This document shows, in pieces, positions 1 to 8,300 of a DNA stretch of 64,000 nucleotides. Numbering within the stretch: position 1 is the first letter of the stretch; each line of letters begins with the position of its first letter. Below the pieces are notes generated by a model. It saw nothing but the letters and a program-made list of their open reading frames with translations. It was not told where the DNA came from and did no database searches. The DNA is from Stutzerimonas stutzeri. Lineage in GTDB: Bacteria; Pseudomonadota; Gammaproteobacteria; Pseudomonadales; Pseudomonadaceae. A program made the position numbers and the translations under genes. The stretch is taken from NCBI RefSeq assembly GCF_013522825.1, contig NZ_JAAMQZ010000004.1, positions 1 to 64,000 on the forward strand, read 5' to 3'.

Positions 1-2
1 CC

Positions 3-1505
3 GTCCTGCTCAAGCAGATGTTGCTGTTGGCGCACGGAAAAGTGGCGCAACTCCAAGAACAAGTTGCTCTGCTGCGCCACAAGTTGTTCTCGCCCAAGTC
101 CGAGCGCAGCCCTGAAGATACCGACTCGCCGCAGTTGGCCATGTTCAACGAGGCCGAAGAGCTGATCGAAGCGCTGTCCGCCGCGCCAGCCGAAGCCGAA
201 GCCGAAGCCGAAGAAATCGTTGCGCCGGTCAAGCGCCGTGGCAAGCGCAAGCCGTTGCCGGCCAACCTGCCGCGTGTCGAGGTCATCCACGACCTGCCCG
301 AGCACGAGCTGACTTGCGCCTGTGGCGCCTGCAAACAGGTCATCGGCGAGGAGACCAGCGAACAGCTGGAGATCATCCCGATGCAGGTGCGGGTCATCCG
401 CCATATCCGCAAGACCTACGCCTGCAAGGCCTGCGAAGCGGCGCCGATCACTGCCGACAAGCCGGCCCAACTGATCGAGAAGAGCCTGGCCAGCCCCAGC
501 GTGTTGGCCATGCTGCTGACCACCAAGTACGCCGACGGCATCCCGCTGTACCGCTTCGAGAAGATGCTCAGCCGCCACGGTATCGACATACCACGCCAGA
601 CCCTGGCGCGCTGGGTGATCCAGTGCGGCGAGCAACTGCAACCGCTGCTCAACCTGCTGCGCGACAAGCTGCTCGAATACCCCGTTTTGCACTGCGACGA
701 AACGCGCCTGCAGGTGCTGCATGAACCGGGACGCGATCCCACCGCGCAGTCCTGGATGTGGGTGCAAAGCGGTGGGCCGCCGGACAAGCCGGTAATCCTC
801 TTCGACTACAGCACCAGCCGCGCGCAGGAGGTGCCGTTGCGCCTGCTCGACGGCTATCGCGGCTACCTGATGACCGACGACTACGCCGGCTACAACGCTG
901 TGGCCGCGCAAGAGGGCATCGAACGTCTGGCCTGCTGGGCGCATGCGCGACGCAAGTTCCTCGAGGCGCAGAAGGTGCAGCCTAAGGGCAAGACCGGCCG
1001 GGCCGACATGGCGCTGAACCTGATCAACAAGCTCTACGGCATCGAGCGCGACCTGAAAGACACCGACGACAGCGAGCGCCTGGCCGCCCGGCAGCAACGC
1101 AGTCAGCCACTGCTCGACCAGCTCAAGGCCTGGCTCGACAAAACCCAGCCGCAGGTCGCCGGGCAGACGGCCCTGGGCAAGGCGGTGAACTACCTGGCCA
1201 GCAACTGGAGCCGCCTGGTGCGCTACGTCGAAGGTGGGCACCTGCCTATCGACAACAACCGCGCCGAGAACGCCATCCGCCCCTTCGTCATCGGCCGCAA
1301 GAACTGGCTGTTCAGCGACACGCCCAAGGGCGCCACGGCCAGCGCGCAGATCTACAGCCTGATCGAAACCGCCAAGGCCAATGGCCAGGAGCCTTACGCC
1401 TGGCTGCGCCACATCCTCGAACGCCTGCCAACAGCACAGAACGTTGAGGACTACGAAGCGCTGCTGCCTTGGAACTGCTCGCCGGCTTCTGCTCCTGCTT
1501 CCTGA
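3..1505 (+). CDS. tnpC: IS66 family transposase (TnpC), 5' end probably outside window
   Basis: This is a DDE-type transposase of the IS66 group. The first in-window ATG is at 18, but the frame is open to the left edge and family members normally have more N-terminal sequence, so the gene is listed as partial. Residues counted from that ATG: coiled N-terminus about 8-25; an Ala/Glu linker about 55-67; a zinc-finger-like region with Cys100, 102, 105, 136 and 139; the catalytic core with Asp227 (CDET), Asp287/288 (TDDYAGY) and Glu417 in the IS66 signature [10 protein letters not shown]. The C-terminal portion is intact and ends at 1505. The accessory genes tnpA and tnpB, if present, would lie to the left. 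Confidence 0.9.
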
Positions 1506-1530
1506 AAATAAATCCCGTCCTGGCGGGCGG

Positions 1531-1548
1531 GGTTTATGGAGCGCTTAC
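1531..1548 (+). repeat. IS66 right terminal inverted repeat
   Basis: Inward-facing sequence GTAAGCGCTCCATAAACC (reverse complement of the top strand) at the element edge, 26 bp past the transposase stop. The matching left repeat is off the window. Confidence 0.65.
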
Positions 1549-1681
1549 AGAGAAAGTGACTCGCCGTGCAAGGCGAAACCTGTCGGTGGGGGCGAGGAAA
1601 GCGTGACGGGGAAGCGCGAGCGGCGCGATGGCTGCCGAAAATAAATCTGTCCCCTTTTCTCCTTCCAAGCTACCTCGTTAT

Positions 1682-3382
1682 TCAAACGAGTAACGAGTCA
1701 ATGTTTGCAAGGACCGTTGCGGTAAGAGGAGGCGATTTAAGCAGGTCGCGTGAAATGTCCGGGTCAGGAATTGCCGTTTTTATGATCAGGTCAAGCCTTT
1801 CGAACCATATCCCGTCATTTGCGGAGAATAGATTGTAGAGCGCCTCGTTTTTCGTCTTGCAGCCAAGTCCTTTATGCTTGATCGCGCAATATTTGGCTGC
1901 GGCCGTCATTAGGTGCCATCTTAGCTTTGAGTACTTGCCGTCAAATCGCTTGTTAGAAGTTAGCATCCTCAGGCGATAATGAATGTAGCAAGCCGTATAG
2001 TAATCCTCCTCTTGCGCGCCAGTTGCGAAAACATCATTCAGAAGCTCGCCAGTAAGTCTATTTGGATATCGACTTGCTAGGTCTGGACGCATCATGGCAA
2101 CTGCAGCATAGCAGCGTGCTGTCTCTCTTACATCGAAAATTCTCACTGGTGCGACATTTTCTGGTCGATATTGACCTTTTCTGCGTTCAAAATAGATTCT
2201 ATTGGCTTCTCCTGCGCCTCTGGCATTGAAGTATTGCTCCAGATCGCGGAGGGCAGATAATGTCGATATGAACTGAGCGTCTTCGACCTTTGATTGTCTG
2301 TTGGTCGCGCGAACAATGTCGTCAATTATTGCTGGTTCGTCGGCCTCAATAAGCTTTACCATTAAGCTTACGGAGTTGTCGACCTGGCTGTCTAATGAGA
2401 TCAATACGTTAGAAGTCTGGCAGCCATTTACAATTTGGAAGTCTCTTATGTAAATTTCTTGGCCGGCGGGTCGAACGCTTGATGCAACGATCGTTACACC
2501 GTTATTCATTAGGCCGAATCTCTGTTTTTTATCTCCGTTGTTCAAGGTTTCGGCAATCTCTGAGTTTACATCTACATCAACGCCTAGGAAGTCTCTGACG
2601 TTTTCTTCAAAGAGCTTCTTGCGTGGAGTGCCGTTTTGGTCCTTAAGAATCGAGTCAATAAAGCTACGTGCTGCTACGGTAGCGACGTAAGCATTGTTGA
2701 TATTTGGCGCGGCGGGAAATGGAGCATATCCAATGGTTGCGAGCTTTGTCTCCATCGGGCCATCAGCCGAAAGCCAAAGGTCATGAATAGTATCTCGGTG
2801 TGCTTTTATTAAAAGGGTTTCGTTAGAGTAGCCCATTTTTTTTAGTGCAGATTCACCAACCTGAAAGGCAGCATTGATTTCCACCGCATCCGTGTCGGGG
2901 GCTGCTGTGAGGAAATAGGCGTGTAAAGCTGGGAGTCCACCTTTGATCCGGCCTATGTTCTCGTATATCTTTGTAAACATACACTTGAAGTCGGCTAGAT
3001 ACTGGCTATGAGGCTGGGCTGGCTCCTCTGATAGATAGTCAACAATGGCAGCAACAAAAGAATCAATTTCCTGTTTCGACCAGCTTGTAGATCTTTTTGC
3101 TTGTGTCAGGATTATTGATACCTGATATTCTCGCCGTGTGCCTTTGAATATTTCATCGAGTTCCTCTGGAGAGAATACAGCGCGATCGTCAAGGAATAGC
3201 AGTGCGCCATCAATGCCTGGGTCTGAGCCTTCATAAACAAGGTCGCTAACTTCAACGCTGTCTCCTGAATATTTGGAGAAAACACAGTAATTAACGAAGG
3301 CTTCGAAGTTTTTAGATTCATCGTACGGCGCGCCGAAGTCTCTGCAGAAGCCGTCGAAGTATGATTTAGTTACAAGATGCAT
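1682..3382 (-). CDS. AIPR-domain protein, putative abortive-infection/phage-defence protein
   Basis: A 566-residue protein with the signatures of the AIPR (abortive infection phage resistance) family: MNNGVTIV at about 292-299 and FQIVNGCQTS at about 315-324. The N-terminal part has a GIDG at about 56-59 (Asp58) and TQAK at about 93-96 (Gln94, Lys96). That resembles the D...QxK active site of Mrr-like PD-(D/E)XK nucleases, although the spacing is long. The start at 3382 has a strong AAGGA site 6-7 bases upstream. Base composition is visibly more A/T-rich than the flanking genes, with frequent A/T third positions. It sits between an IS66 end and nrdB, so it was probably acquired horizontally. 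Family membership is fairly sure; antiphage activity and nuclease activity are inferences. Confidence 0.8.
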   Translation of the reverse strand: MHLVTKSYFDGFCRDFGAPYDESKNFEAFVNYCVFSKYSGDSVEVSDLVYEGSDPGIDGALLFLDDRAVFSPEELDEIFKGTRREYQVSIILTQAKRSTSWSKQEIDSFVAAIVDYLSEEPAQPHSQYLADFKCMFTKIYENIGRIKGGLPALHAYFLTAAPDTDAVEINAAFQVGESALKKMGYSNETLLIKAHRDTIHDLWLSADGPMETKLATIGYAPFPAAPNINNAYVATVAARSFIDSILKDQNGTPRKKLFEENVRDFLGVDVDVNSEIAETLNNGDKKQRFGLMNNGVTIVASSVRPAGQEIYIRDFQIVNGCQTSNVLISLDSQVDNSVSLMVKLIEADEPAIIDDIVRATNRQSKVEDAQFISTLSALRDLEQYFNARGAGEANRIYFERRKGQYRPENVAPVRIFDVRETARCYAAVAMMRPDLASRYPNRLTGELLNDVFATGAQEEDYYTACYIHYRLRMLTSNKRFDGKYSKLRWHLMTAAAKYCAIKHKGLGCKTKNEALYNLFSANDGIWFERLDLIIKTAIPDPDISRDLLKSPPLTATVLANIDSLLV

Positions 3383-3515
3383 GAAAAGTCCTTTTAATTA
3401 TGCTGTTAGTGTGGCGTTGGTAATAGATGGAGTTTGAGCGTGGTTTGTTAACTCATTAGGTGGCCTCGCGTGATGCGAGGCTTAAATGGCTCTGCTGAGT
3501 AATCTCGCAGGTCGA

Positions 3516-3529
3516 TGTGGCGCGCCACA
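3516..3529. other. Perfect 14-bp palindrome downstream of nrdB
   Basis: TGTGGCGCGCCACA lies 20 bases after the nrdB stop, in the 167-bp gap between the core nrdB gene and the AT-rich AIPR gene. It could form a short hairpin at the end of the nrdAB transcript, but no T-run follows, so it is not called a terminator. The rest of the gap holds no recognisable gene. Confidence 0.4.
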
Positions 3530-3549
3530 GATAGCGTTTTGTCATGCTG

Positions 3550-4797
3550 TCAATCCCAGCTCAAAGCCCCACCCGTCTGATACTCAATCACCCGCGTCTC
3601 AAAGAAGTTCTTTTCCTTCTTGAGGTCCATGATCTCGCTCATCCATGGGAACGGGTTGGTGGTGCCCGGATATTCCTCTTTCAAACCAATCTGCGTCAGA
3701 CGCCGGTTGGCGATGAACTTGAGGTAGTCCTCCATCATCGCCGCGTTCATGCCGAGCACGCCGCGGGGCATGGTGTCGCGGGCGTATTCGATTTCCAGTT
3801 GGGTGCCCTGGAGGATCATCTGGGTCGCTTCGTCCTTCATGGCGGCGTCCCAAAGGTGGGGGTTTTCGATCTTGATCTGGTTGATCACGTCGATGCCGAA
3901 GTTCAGGTGCATGGACTCGTCGCGCAGAATGTACTGGAACTGCTCGGCGGTGCCGGTCATCTTGTTGCGGCGGCCCATGGAGAGGATCTGGGTGAAGCCG
4001 CAGTAGAAGAAGATGCCTTCCAGTACGCAGTAGTAGGCGATGAGGTTGCGCAGGAACTCTTTGTCCGTCTCGACGGTGCCGGTCTGGAAGGTCGGGTCGG
4101 AGATGGAGCGGGTGTACTTGAGGCCCCAGGAGGCTTTCTTCGCGACGCTCGGGATCTCGTGGTACATGTTGAAGATCTCGCCTTCATCCATGCCCAGGGA
4201 CTCGATGCAGTACTGGTAGGCGTGGGTGTGGATCGCCTCTTCGAAGGCCTGGCGCAGGATGTACTGGCGGCATTCGGGGTTGGTGATCAGGCGGTACACG
4301 GCCAGCACGAGATTGTTGGCGACCAGGCTGTCGGCAGTGGAGAAGAAGCCGAGGTTGCGCTTGACAATGCGGCGCTCGTCCTCGGAGAGGCCGTCCGGGC
4401 TCTTCCACAGGGCGATGTCGGCGTTCATGTTCACTTCCTGCGGCATCCAGTGGTTGGCGCAACCATCCAGATACTTCTGCCAGGCCCAGTCGTACTTGAA
4501 GGGTACGAGCTGGTTGAGGTCGGCGCGGGCGTTGATCATCTGCTTGTCGCCGACGTGAACGCGGGCGGATTCGCCTTCGAGTTCGGCGAGGCCTTCGCGA
4601 ATGTCGAGCTCGTTGAGCGCCTGCTTGGCGCGGGCGATGGCAGCGGAGTCGTCAGCGGCGACGGCGCGGGCTTCTTCGACGGAGCCGGCGGCTTCGTTGT
4701 CCAGCTTGGCGGTGTTCTGTTGCGCGGGCTGTGCGGTAGCGGCGACCGGCGCGGCAGTGGTGGTTTCTTCTTCGTCGAATTCGTCCCAGCTCAGCAT
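3550..4797 (-). CDS. nrdB: Class Ia ribonucleoside-diphosphate reductase, beta (radical) subunit
   Basis: This is the small subunit of aerobic class Ia ribonucleotide reductase; it carries the diiron-tyrosyl radical used by NrdA to make deoxyribonucleotides. The start at 4797 (MLSWDEF) is chosen because AAGGAG precedes it by about 10 bases; an upstream in-frame start at 4905 would translate intergenic repeat sequence. The product is 415 residues, longer than E. coli NrdB because of an Ala/Glu-rich N-terminal segment of about 60 residues. Likely iron ligands and radical site are Asp156, Glu187, His190, Tyr194 (EAIHTHAY), Glu260, Glu294 and His297. It lies 164 bp downstream of nrdA on the same strand. 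Confidence 0.97.
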
Positions 4798-4815
4798 GGG
4801 GGAGGCTCCTTTCAG

Positions 4816-4961
4816 GAGCAGCTTCAAGCGGCAAGCTTCAAGCTGCAAGGGGGTCGGTGTTGGGGCCGGATCGGGAGTTCGATCCGGCCCGTCGTGACTG
4901 CACACTGCGGCAATCGCTGCTTTTCAGCTGGTCGCTTATGGCTTGCAGCTTGCAGCTGCTG
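4816..4961. repeat. Inverted repeat pair filling the nrdA-nrdB gap
   Basis: The left arm at 4816-4849 and the right arm at 4933-4961 are related to each other as diverged inverted copies of an AAGCTGCAAGC-type motif. They bracket about 80 bp that contains a strong hairpin (separate entry). This resembles short REP-like elements of Pseudomonas rather than a gene. The transcript from nrdA to nrdB must cross it. Confidence 0.55.
4864..4889. other. Strong hairpin between nrdA and nrdB
   Basis: GGCCGGATCG at 4864-4873 pairs perfectly with CGATCCGGCC at 4880-4889 around a 6-base loop. There is no T-tract after it in the nrdB direction, so it looks more like an mRNA-stability or processing hairpin than an intrinsic terminator. 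It could adjust the NrdA:NrdB ratio. Confidence 0.5.
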
Positions 4962-7856
<2,895 letters not shown>

Positions 7857-8025
7857 GGGGTCTCCGGATTCTCTCTGTCTCGATGGCACGTAAGGTTCGT
7901 ACTTGCAATGAATACGCGCCGGCTCGCCGGCGCGGGACAACAAAAGGGAATTTCTCACCTGTCTGGGTGTGGCGAATCGATTGTCCCGAAGGATAGTCAT
8001 CAGTCGTGAAGTTCACAACCTCAAA

Positions 8026-8041
8026 ACACTACATGTAGTGT
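8026..8041. promoter_or_regulatory. NrdR box, proximal to nrdA
   Basis: ACACTACATGTAGTGT is a perfect 16-bp palindrome and matches the NrdR-box consensus (acaCwAtATaTwGtgt type). It lies 170 bp upstream of the nrdA start. NrdR is the nucleotide-sensing repressor of ribonucleotide reductase genes. Confidence 0.9.
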
Positions 8042-8300
8042 GAGCTGGTCCTCGGGTACACCATTTCTGGAATTGAGCACAATCAAGGGCATTGGCGTCG
8101 GGAGCGCAGCCCGAAAGTGGTTTGCCGGGTCTTCGAAAGGAGGATTTGGGCGGAAAGGCCGGGCTAAAATTATTTCGCTTGCTTTTGTCGTCAGTTGTGC
8201 TTGATGGTTCTTCTCAACCCAACATATGGGGTCTTTATCGTCAGGGGCGACACGATAATGCCGGGTTTCGCTTTGTGCAAGGCGCCAGGATTGAACAAGC

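Follow-up and report, generated by a model that had tools for sequence, protein, structure and literature searches.

A predicted PD-(D/E)XK nuclease joined to a ParB-like domain in an AbiU/AIPR-family protein encoded in the variable, mostly defence-like DNA downstream of nrdB in Stutzerimonas stutzeri

In this work we focused on an intact gene of the AbiU/AIPR family in Stutzerimonas stutzeri (assembly GCF_013522825.1, 5.0 Mb). The gene lies at positions 1682 to 3382, on the minus strand, of a 64,000-nucleotide stretch corresponding to bases 1 to 64,000 of contig NZ_JAAMQZ010000004.1 and hereafter called the window; it starts with an ATG and encodes 566 residues. It sits directly after nrdB, at a site where members of this Pseudomonadaceae genus carry variable, mostly defence-like genes, and we propose that it is a stand-alone gene for phage defence and part of the variable cargo found at the nrdB 3' end. 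Its product would consist of an N-terminal PD-(D/E)XK DNA nuclease, a ParB/sulfiredoxin-fold (AIPR) domain and a tail made of helices. If it works like SspE and GmrSD/BrxU, its ParB-like domain would bind a nucleotide and restrain the nuclease until a cue of infection is sensed, either a feature of the infecting DNA or one of replication. The released nuclease would then cut phage DNA or, later, all of the cell's DNA. We give this mechanism as a whole, that of a nucleotide-gated DNA nuclease wired like SspE and GmrSD with a different cutter in front, a probability of roughly 60%; a role in defence, taken by itself, we regard as likely.

The family is a known one. AbiU was named long ago, and AbiU/AIPR proteins have long been listed as phage-resistance proteins. 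The Pfam AIPR domain (PF10592) matched residues 258-482 with an E value of 2.9e-42 (145.8 bits, for a curated cut-off of 25), and the AbiU model of PADLOC covered residues 2-561 of 566 (E value 2.3e-112). No difference from AbiU was found over the full length of the protein; it is the reading of its domains that differs here, as a nuclease followed by a ParB-like domain and not as a HEPN protein. An earlier note, made from the DNA sequence alone, had identified the gene as AIPR by its signatures, and its observation is confirmed. NNG is at residues 293-295 and DFQIVNGCQ at 314-322; the GIDG and QAK motifs, which it used to place D58, Q94 and K96, lie at the positions it gave. AIPR was the sole Pfam family detected in the protein, with no match to PF03235 and, up to an E value of 1, none to Mrr (PF04471), and the solved structures contained no relative by sequence at an E value of 1. 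MzaE gave a weak PADLOC match, NF041935 scoring 40.9 bits, far below its equivalog cut-off of 1050. AIPR_N (PF22879) had no match in the source genome, and was also silent in all 14 controls. The source genome holds no second match to the gene.

The N-terminal domain (residues 1-212, positions 2747-3382, minus strand) bears the putative catalytic residues E27, D58, Q94 and K96. Their conservation was assessed after a homologue scan of genome contigs, which gave 108 relatives, the best 80 being kept. Nine of these (L004, L005, L009, L013, L014, L052, L054, L059 and L068) had split, truncated or uncertain frames and were left out of the alignment, which comprised 72 proteins and 786 columns with a mean column identity of 34%. 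The sole columns invariant in all 72 rows before residue 258 were F26, E27, D58 and Q94, a set that we read as containing the helix glutamate, the strand aspartate and the strand glutamine of a Q-x-K variant of the PD-(D/E)XK site. The lysine K96 was kept in 65 of the 72 rows. The other seven (L020, L026, L030, L034, L055, L066 and L029), with Asp, Glu or Thr at this position, speak against an active site; all seven show a lysine at column 105, a position that falls within the first turn of the helix following the K96 strand, compared with three of the 65 rows that retain K96. This association was the strongest among the 786 columns (Fisher p = 8e-8, uncorrected; next best column, p = 6e-4). 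Six of the seven rows form one clade with a support of 1.0, and L029 is placed elsewhere, under nodes with supports of 0.41 and 0.91, so that the lysine has likely, but not certainly, moved in two separate events. Moving catalytic residues are known in the PD-(D/E)XK superfamily. Since the loss of K96 is always matched by K105, the pattern points to retained catalysis, as if the catalytic lysine had moved, and at the sequence level we consider it the strongest argument for a site in use.

The conserved domain might nevertheless bind DNA or RNA without cutting it, so that the protein would repress or delay phage transcription. The lactococcal AbiU is reported to delay phage transcription, and the six rows of a single clade with Asp or Glu in place of K96 would fit such a role, but the acidic and glutamine positions are invariant, and the presence of K105 in all seven rows without K96 argues for retained catalysis. 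We consider this alternative unlikely.

A model of the protein obtained with AlphaFold from the 72-protein alignment reached a predicted local distance difference test score (pLDDT) of 90.0 and a predicted template modelling score (pTM) of 0.80. Between residues 22 and 206 it contains a helix (22-38), two strands (59-64 and 67-69), a short helix, a strand (88-96), two helices (103-117 and 127-141), a strand (152-159), a helix, a strand (188-194) and a last helix, and the alpha-beta-beta-beta-alpha-beta core is present in this predicted structure. Structural Z values were taken from a second look with VIA over the list returned by Foldseek, folds missed by Foldseek being out of its reach. For residues 3-208 the best matches were FokI (Z 8.8 over 144 residues at 3.7 Å, and 8.5), MspJI (7.5) and Avs4 (7.3), followed by the BspD6I small subunit, EcoT38I and HamA (6.7), then CdiA-CT and LmuA, and Shedu (4.1). 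Twelve of the top 20 rows are chains that we take to be PD-(D/E)XK nucleases. The remaining rows were four RNA-polymerase chains E (Z 4.7-5.6), presumably Rpb5, with its nuclease-like fold, and four ParB chains, the last-named on residues 221-373. Taking the predicted structure and the conserved residues together, we are confident that the N-terminal domain has a nuclease fold and site.

This model also bears on another view, in which the N-terminal domain would act as a HEPN RNase toxin and the protein would kill by RNA cleavage. In favour of it, the accessible text of PMC3506569 states that AIPR proteins carry an N-terminal HEPN domain. However, the model of residues 1-208 is not all-helical but holds the five strands given above, between residues 59 and 194, and its structural matches are PD-(D/E)XK nucleases. 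The HEPN toxin was rejected on this predicted fold, and we find it very improbable. A later HEPN survey lists AbiU2 and, in its accessible part, contains no occurrence of AIPR, so the statement in PMC3506569 may concern that other gene.

The AIPR domain starts with a ParB/sulfiredoxin-like half (approximately residues 213-373, positions 2264-2746, minus strand), which contains both the NNG and the DFQIVNGCQ signatures, and is followed by a mostly helical C-terminal part (approximately residues 374-566, positions 1685-2263, minus strand) in which R400 and R401 are invariant. Residues 213-566 folded alone gave a pLDDT of 91.9. For this part, the top 20 rows given by VIA were ParB, PadC, Noc, KorB, sulfiredoxin, SspE, BrxU and Osa chains, all of which we take to have the ParB/sulfiredoxin (Srx) fold, with Z values of 3.6-6.3 over 82-116 residues (PadC 6.3, ParB-CDP 6.2, sulfiredoxin-ATP 5.0, SspE 4.6, BrxU 3.8); the best E value of Foldseek alone was 0.23. 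From these models, a ParB-like fold of the AIPR core appears probable. The NGCQ motif (residues 319-322, within NGCQT at 319-323) is invariant in the alignment; its cysteine is not general, as NGLQ occurs in an AIPR protein found after nrdB in another genome of the genus (G030). NGCQ recalls the FG/SGCHR motif of sulfiredoxin and the DGQQR motif of GmrS, as given in the accessible text of PMC4619093, and may coincide with them in space.

Several results weigh against this architecture. Foldseek alone gave no match at an E value of 0.001 or better with either model, and the Z values are middling, the tool itself cautioning that best Z values of 7-8 often arise where no clear match exists. Profile comparisons with hhalign were made between three slices of the alignment and nine families, namely Mrr, DndB, GmrSD_N and six controls, the Mrr family being represented by six hotspot proteins of one cluster, one scanned member of which was Mrr_cat. 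The N-terminal slice had Mrr as the best of the nine, at 4%, with its GIDG-type motif aligned over 25 columns. The whole AIPR part had DndB as the best of nine at 2.3%, and GmrSD_N at 0.1%; with a shorter AIPR slice a control family came out on top (0.3%). None of these scores was convincing as sequence-level proof of kinship. Finally, among 22 AIPR matches found in relatives and in the source genome, the GxD...QxK pattern is absent from ten proteins of another AIPR type (L225-L234, 594-698 residues), distinct from the window protein, and from one short open reading frame (ORF), so not every AIPR protein carries the nuclease. The pattern was found by script in nine of the 22 and by eye in two more (L242 and L245). 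It is also present in the AIPR protein of a Lactococcus cremoris plasmid (24% identity), in a protein of phage Fels-2 and in the distant AbiU that adjoins nrdB in G030, and the predicted nuclease thus belongs to the AbiU-like branch of AIPR. The suggestion of the earlier note, a nuclease site reminiscent of Mrr-type PD-(D/E)XK enzymes, finds good support. The invariant E27, D58 and Q94, the lysine swap and the AlphaFold fold, which is PD-(D/E)XK-like and not an unrelated one, agree with it; with a profile link to Mrr of only 4%, the site can be called PD-(D/E)XK-like but not securely Mrr.

The proposed protein resembles SspE and GmrSD/BrxU in combining a sensor and a nuclease in one chain, its AIPR domain aligning with the ParB/Srx part of SspE and BrxU. 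SspE and BrxU sense DNA modification, and the nuclease of SspE is a C-terminal HNH domain. In the window protein the predicted cutter is instead an N-terminal PD-(D/E)XK domain, which also sets it apart from the C-terminal HNH of GmrSD (GmrD, according to the accessible part of PMC4619093). GmrSD (DUF262) further differs by its DGQQR motif and PF03235 domain, the window protein having NGCQT and no PF03235 match. Mrr, Hachiman HamA, Avs4 and Shedu share the predicted nuclease fold, which in the window protein is fused to a ParB-like domain. DndB, the regulator of phosphorothioation, has to our knowledge no nuclease domain. A chain of the DndBCDE-DndI structure aligned over 252 residues, though only at Z 3.2 and 7.5 Å, the profile link to DndB is weak, as mentioned above, and the N-terminal domain of DndB has been placed in the AbiU1/AIPR family (PMC3506569, accessible text). 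AIPR, DndB, GmrSD and SspE would thereby share a single sensor fold, each combining it with a cutter of another kind, and a named catalytic site together with a sensor fold makes the action of AbiU/AIPR proteins testable with few point mutants.

The same resemblance would suit an enzyme of restriction, similar to type IV, which attacks modified phage DNA directly, instead of an abortive-infection effector. The ParB/Srx-like domain is shared with the modification-sensing SspE and BrxU, and no methylase is found among the direct neighbours of the gene, an insertion sequence (IS) 66 transposase and nrdB, the contig ending beyond the former. Against this stands the family name, which rests on abortive infection. 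Such an enzyme would equal the nucleotide-gated nuclease proposed here in all but the last step, restriction or suicide, and we think it possible rather than probable.

The gene is mobile. Among the best 80 homologues the closest, with 89% identity, is on an Azotobacter plasmid beside a type I restriction locus, and the next nearest (74-84% identity) are in Duganella, Acidovorax, Shinella, a proteobacterial metagenome-assembled genome, and Burkholderia and Escherichia coli plasmids. AIPR proteins are spread over many phyla, and matches were found in eight phage records, including Fels-2 (31% identity, full length) and mycobacteriophages (25%). Within 194 related genomes, the source genome included, ten had any match to the gene. 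Its rarity in relatives and the distant taxa, plasmids and phages that hold its nearest homologues indicate mobile cargo. Its G+C content (GC) is 0.461, compared with 0.625 for nrdAB and 0.638 for the window, so that the gene is AT-richer than its surroundings, as the earlier note had remarked.

These data leave little room for the view that the gene is native to the genus and serves a housekeeping function beside nrdAB. The position of the gene directly after nrdB, on the same strand, would agree with such a role, but a GC 16 points below that of nrdAB, matches in so few of the 194 genomes and nearest homologues that are plasmid-borne (Azotobacter, Burkholderia and E. coli) or belong to Duganella and Acidovorax all oppose it, as do the other 42 genus genomes compared, which hold other clusters at this site (in G030 a distant AbiU). 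The gene is thus neither syntenic nor compositionally native in the relatives, and we judge a native origin extremely improbable.

Some further observations were made on the homologues. That of Fels-2 (L270, 3001-4698) is full-length, adjoins the portal gene Q, is annotated as hypothetical and has its site residues intact. Those of L004, L005 and L009 are split by a stop or a frame shift, which suggests decay of cargo. The neighbours of 11 close homologues included no recurrent gene family, some of these loci being cut by contig ends. In 14 of 79 homologue loci, including L038 (4604-7867), the AIPR gene has a large ATPase gene as its immediate upstream neighbour. AAA and HerA (DUF87) domains were detected in the single ATPase scanned, and the two genes possibly form a system; eight of the 14 loci were listed with their source, and all eight are actinobacterial.

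The 3' flank of nrdB is a real and strong hotspot of variable, mostly defence-like cargo. DNA downstream of nrdB was collected from 47 relatives of the genus (48 had a match, but G004 had no usable nrdB region). The first gene was defined as an ORF of at least 150 residues that starts within 1.3 kb and lies outside four recurrent transposase-type clusters; G002, G005, G012, G014 and G035 had none, owing to contig ends or to the presence of recurrent transposase-type ORFs only. In the resulting 43 genomes (42 relatives and the window) 39 different first-gene clusters follow nrdB, which bears out the suggestion of the earlier note that the nrdB 3' flank is an insertion site, and the first gene has a GC of 0.47 or less in 34 of them. 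The fraction alignable to another genome was on average 9.5% in the first 3.5 kb downstream of nrdB, compared with 79% upstream of nrdA, where the lowest genome still reached 54%; this two-sided comparison used 19 relatives, with the window added to the upstream set and G037 left out because its upstream stretch was too short. By eye, the divergence starts at the nrdB stop codon and includes the terminators. Some genomes nevertheless share short stretches after nrdB, G002, G016, G021 and G030 being one such group.

Scans of the first or second gene covered 37 of the 42 relatives (all but G009, G031, G034, G037 and G041), the second gene replacing the first in G028, G039 and G045. As judged by reading the annotations, 26 of the 37 have a defence-type gene there, two of these calls (G036 and G046) relying on weak PADLOC matches. 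The types comprise a Pycsar cyclase, AGS_C with PycTM, CAP12-TIR, TIR-STAND, SIR2 (two), Schlafen-NB-ARC, a retron and other reverse transcriptases (three), GmrSD_N, two DndB, AbiU, FRG, a dGTPase-like HD protein and AAA_15/AAA_21 ATPases; PADLOC matched 13 of the 20 hotspot proteins given to it. The other 11 genomes, which count against the defence reading, have no gene there that is clearly annotated as defence, but an IS element, a major facilitator superfamily (MFS) transporter, a solute-binding protein, a response regulator, an ORC-CDC6-like ATPase or a weak match or none; new systems may be among them. The four loci L126, L148, L129 and L140 place two DndB-like proteins, a GmrSD_N protein and a second AbiU at the nrdB site, all presumably of ParB/Srx type. 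Of 48 regions, 27 have a LysR-like gene within about 12 kb and 23 an azoreductase-like one (named by eye, with several regions cut by contig ends). The LysR gene, used as an anchor for the right edge of the hotspot, has no close orthologue in the source assembly, where the best match shows 32% identity and the contig ends in IS66.

Similar arrangements have been described in Pseudomonas aeruginosa, where cDHS1 and cDHS2 are likewise formed by core genes beside variable, defence-rich cargo of lower GC (PMC10250203, accessible text). Their markers are different, MerR/DUF4011 and tmRNA/VOC-LysR-RidA, and nrdB does not occur in the accessible text of that paper, nor in that of two later hotspot papers (PMC12629846 and PMC13379101), one of which adds 11 island hotspots, one often holding AbiU, and the other two spots. 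In the literature searched, which holds few subscription papers, we found neither a PD-(D/E)XK or ParB-like fold for AIPR nor nrdB as a defence hotspot. The chances seem to us about even that the whole of the following holds: AbiU/AIPR proteins with GxD...QxK would form a class of their own next to GmrSD and SspE, namely nucleotide-gated nucleases for restriction or suicide with a PD-(D/E)XK cutter ahead of a ParB/sulfiredoxin-fold sensor; the published view of them as HEPN RNases would be mistaken; and at the nrdB 3' end this genus would have a core defence hotspot that is new to the literature, into which new genes are swapped right after the nrdB stop. The nrdB site is a simple marker for collecting defence genes.

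On its 5' side the gene is separated by 167 bases (3383-3549, minus strand) from the end of nrdB (3550-4905, minus strand), the conserved left edge of the hotspot, itself preceded by nrdA (4962-8000, minus strand). This intergenic region had no blastn match at an E value of 0.001 in the nrdB-downstream DNA of the 47 relatives. A purine-rich AAAAGGA lies, by eye, six bases 5' of the ATG. Promoter and terminator scans of positions 1480-3600 gave signals no higher than in shuffled sequence, short repeats in the same interval look like chance, and Rfam had no match within positions 1-8200. On the other side, the ORF at 18-1505 (plus strand) is the IS66 transposase that the earlier note had seen at this border; its start is cut by the contig end, where the readable sequence stops.

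Between the IS66 transposase and the AIPR gene lies an element of about 110 bp (1549-1659, plus strand), which recurs, complete or partial, downstream of nrdB in 19 of the 47 relatives. All 29 hits have the same orientation, with three copies each in G018, G029, G044 and G046, and 18 of the 29 follow a called ORF by no more than 60 bases, although a number of these ORFs may be spurious. A dispersed repetitive extragenic palindromic (REP) sequence was considered and rejected, the source genome having one full-length copy. An exact 21-base end of the element has 41 occurrences, spread over 21 of 56 genus genomes and for the most part away from nrdB, so the element is neither abundant nor exclusive to this site. 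A small transposase-like cluster (L135, 3544-4071) is found beside the cargo in 20 of the 48 nrdB-downstream regions; the one scanned member matched Y1_Tnp with an E value of 0.00025, just under the curated cut-off, and this cluster may be linked to the 110-bp element.
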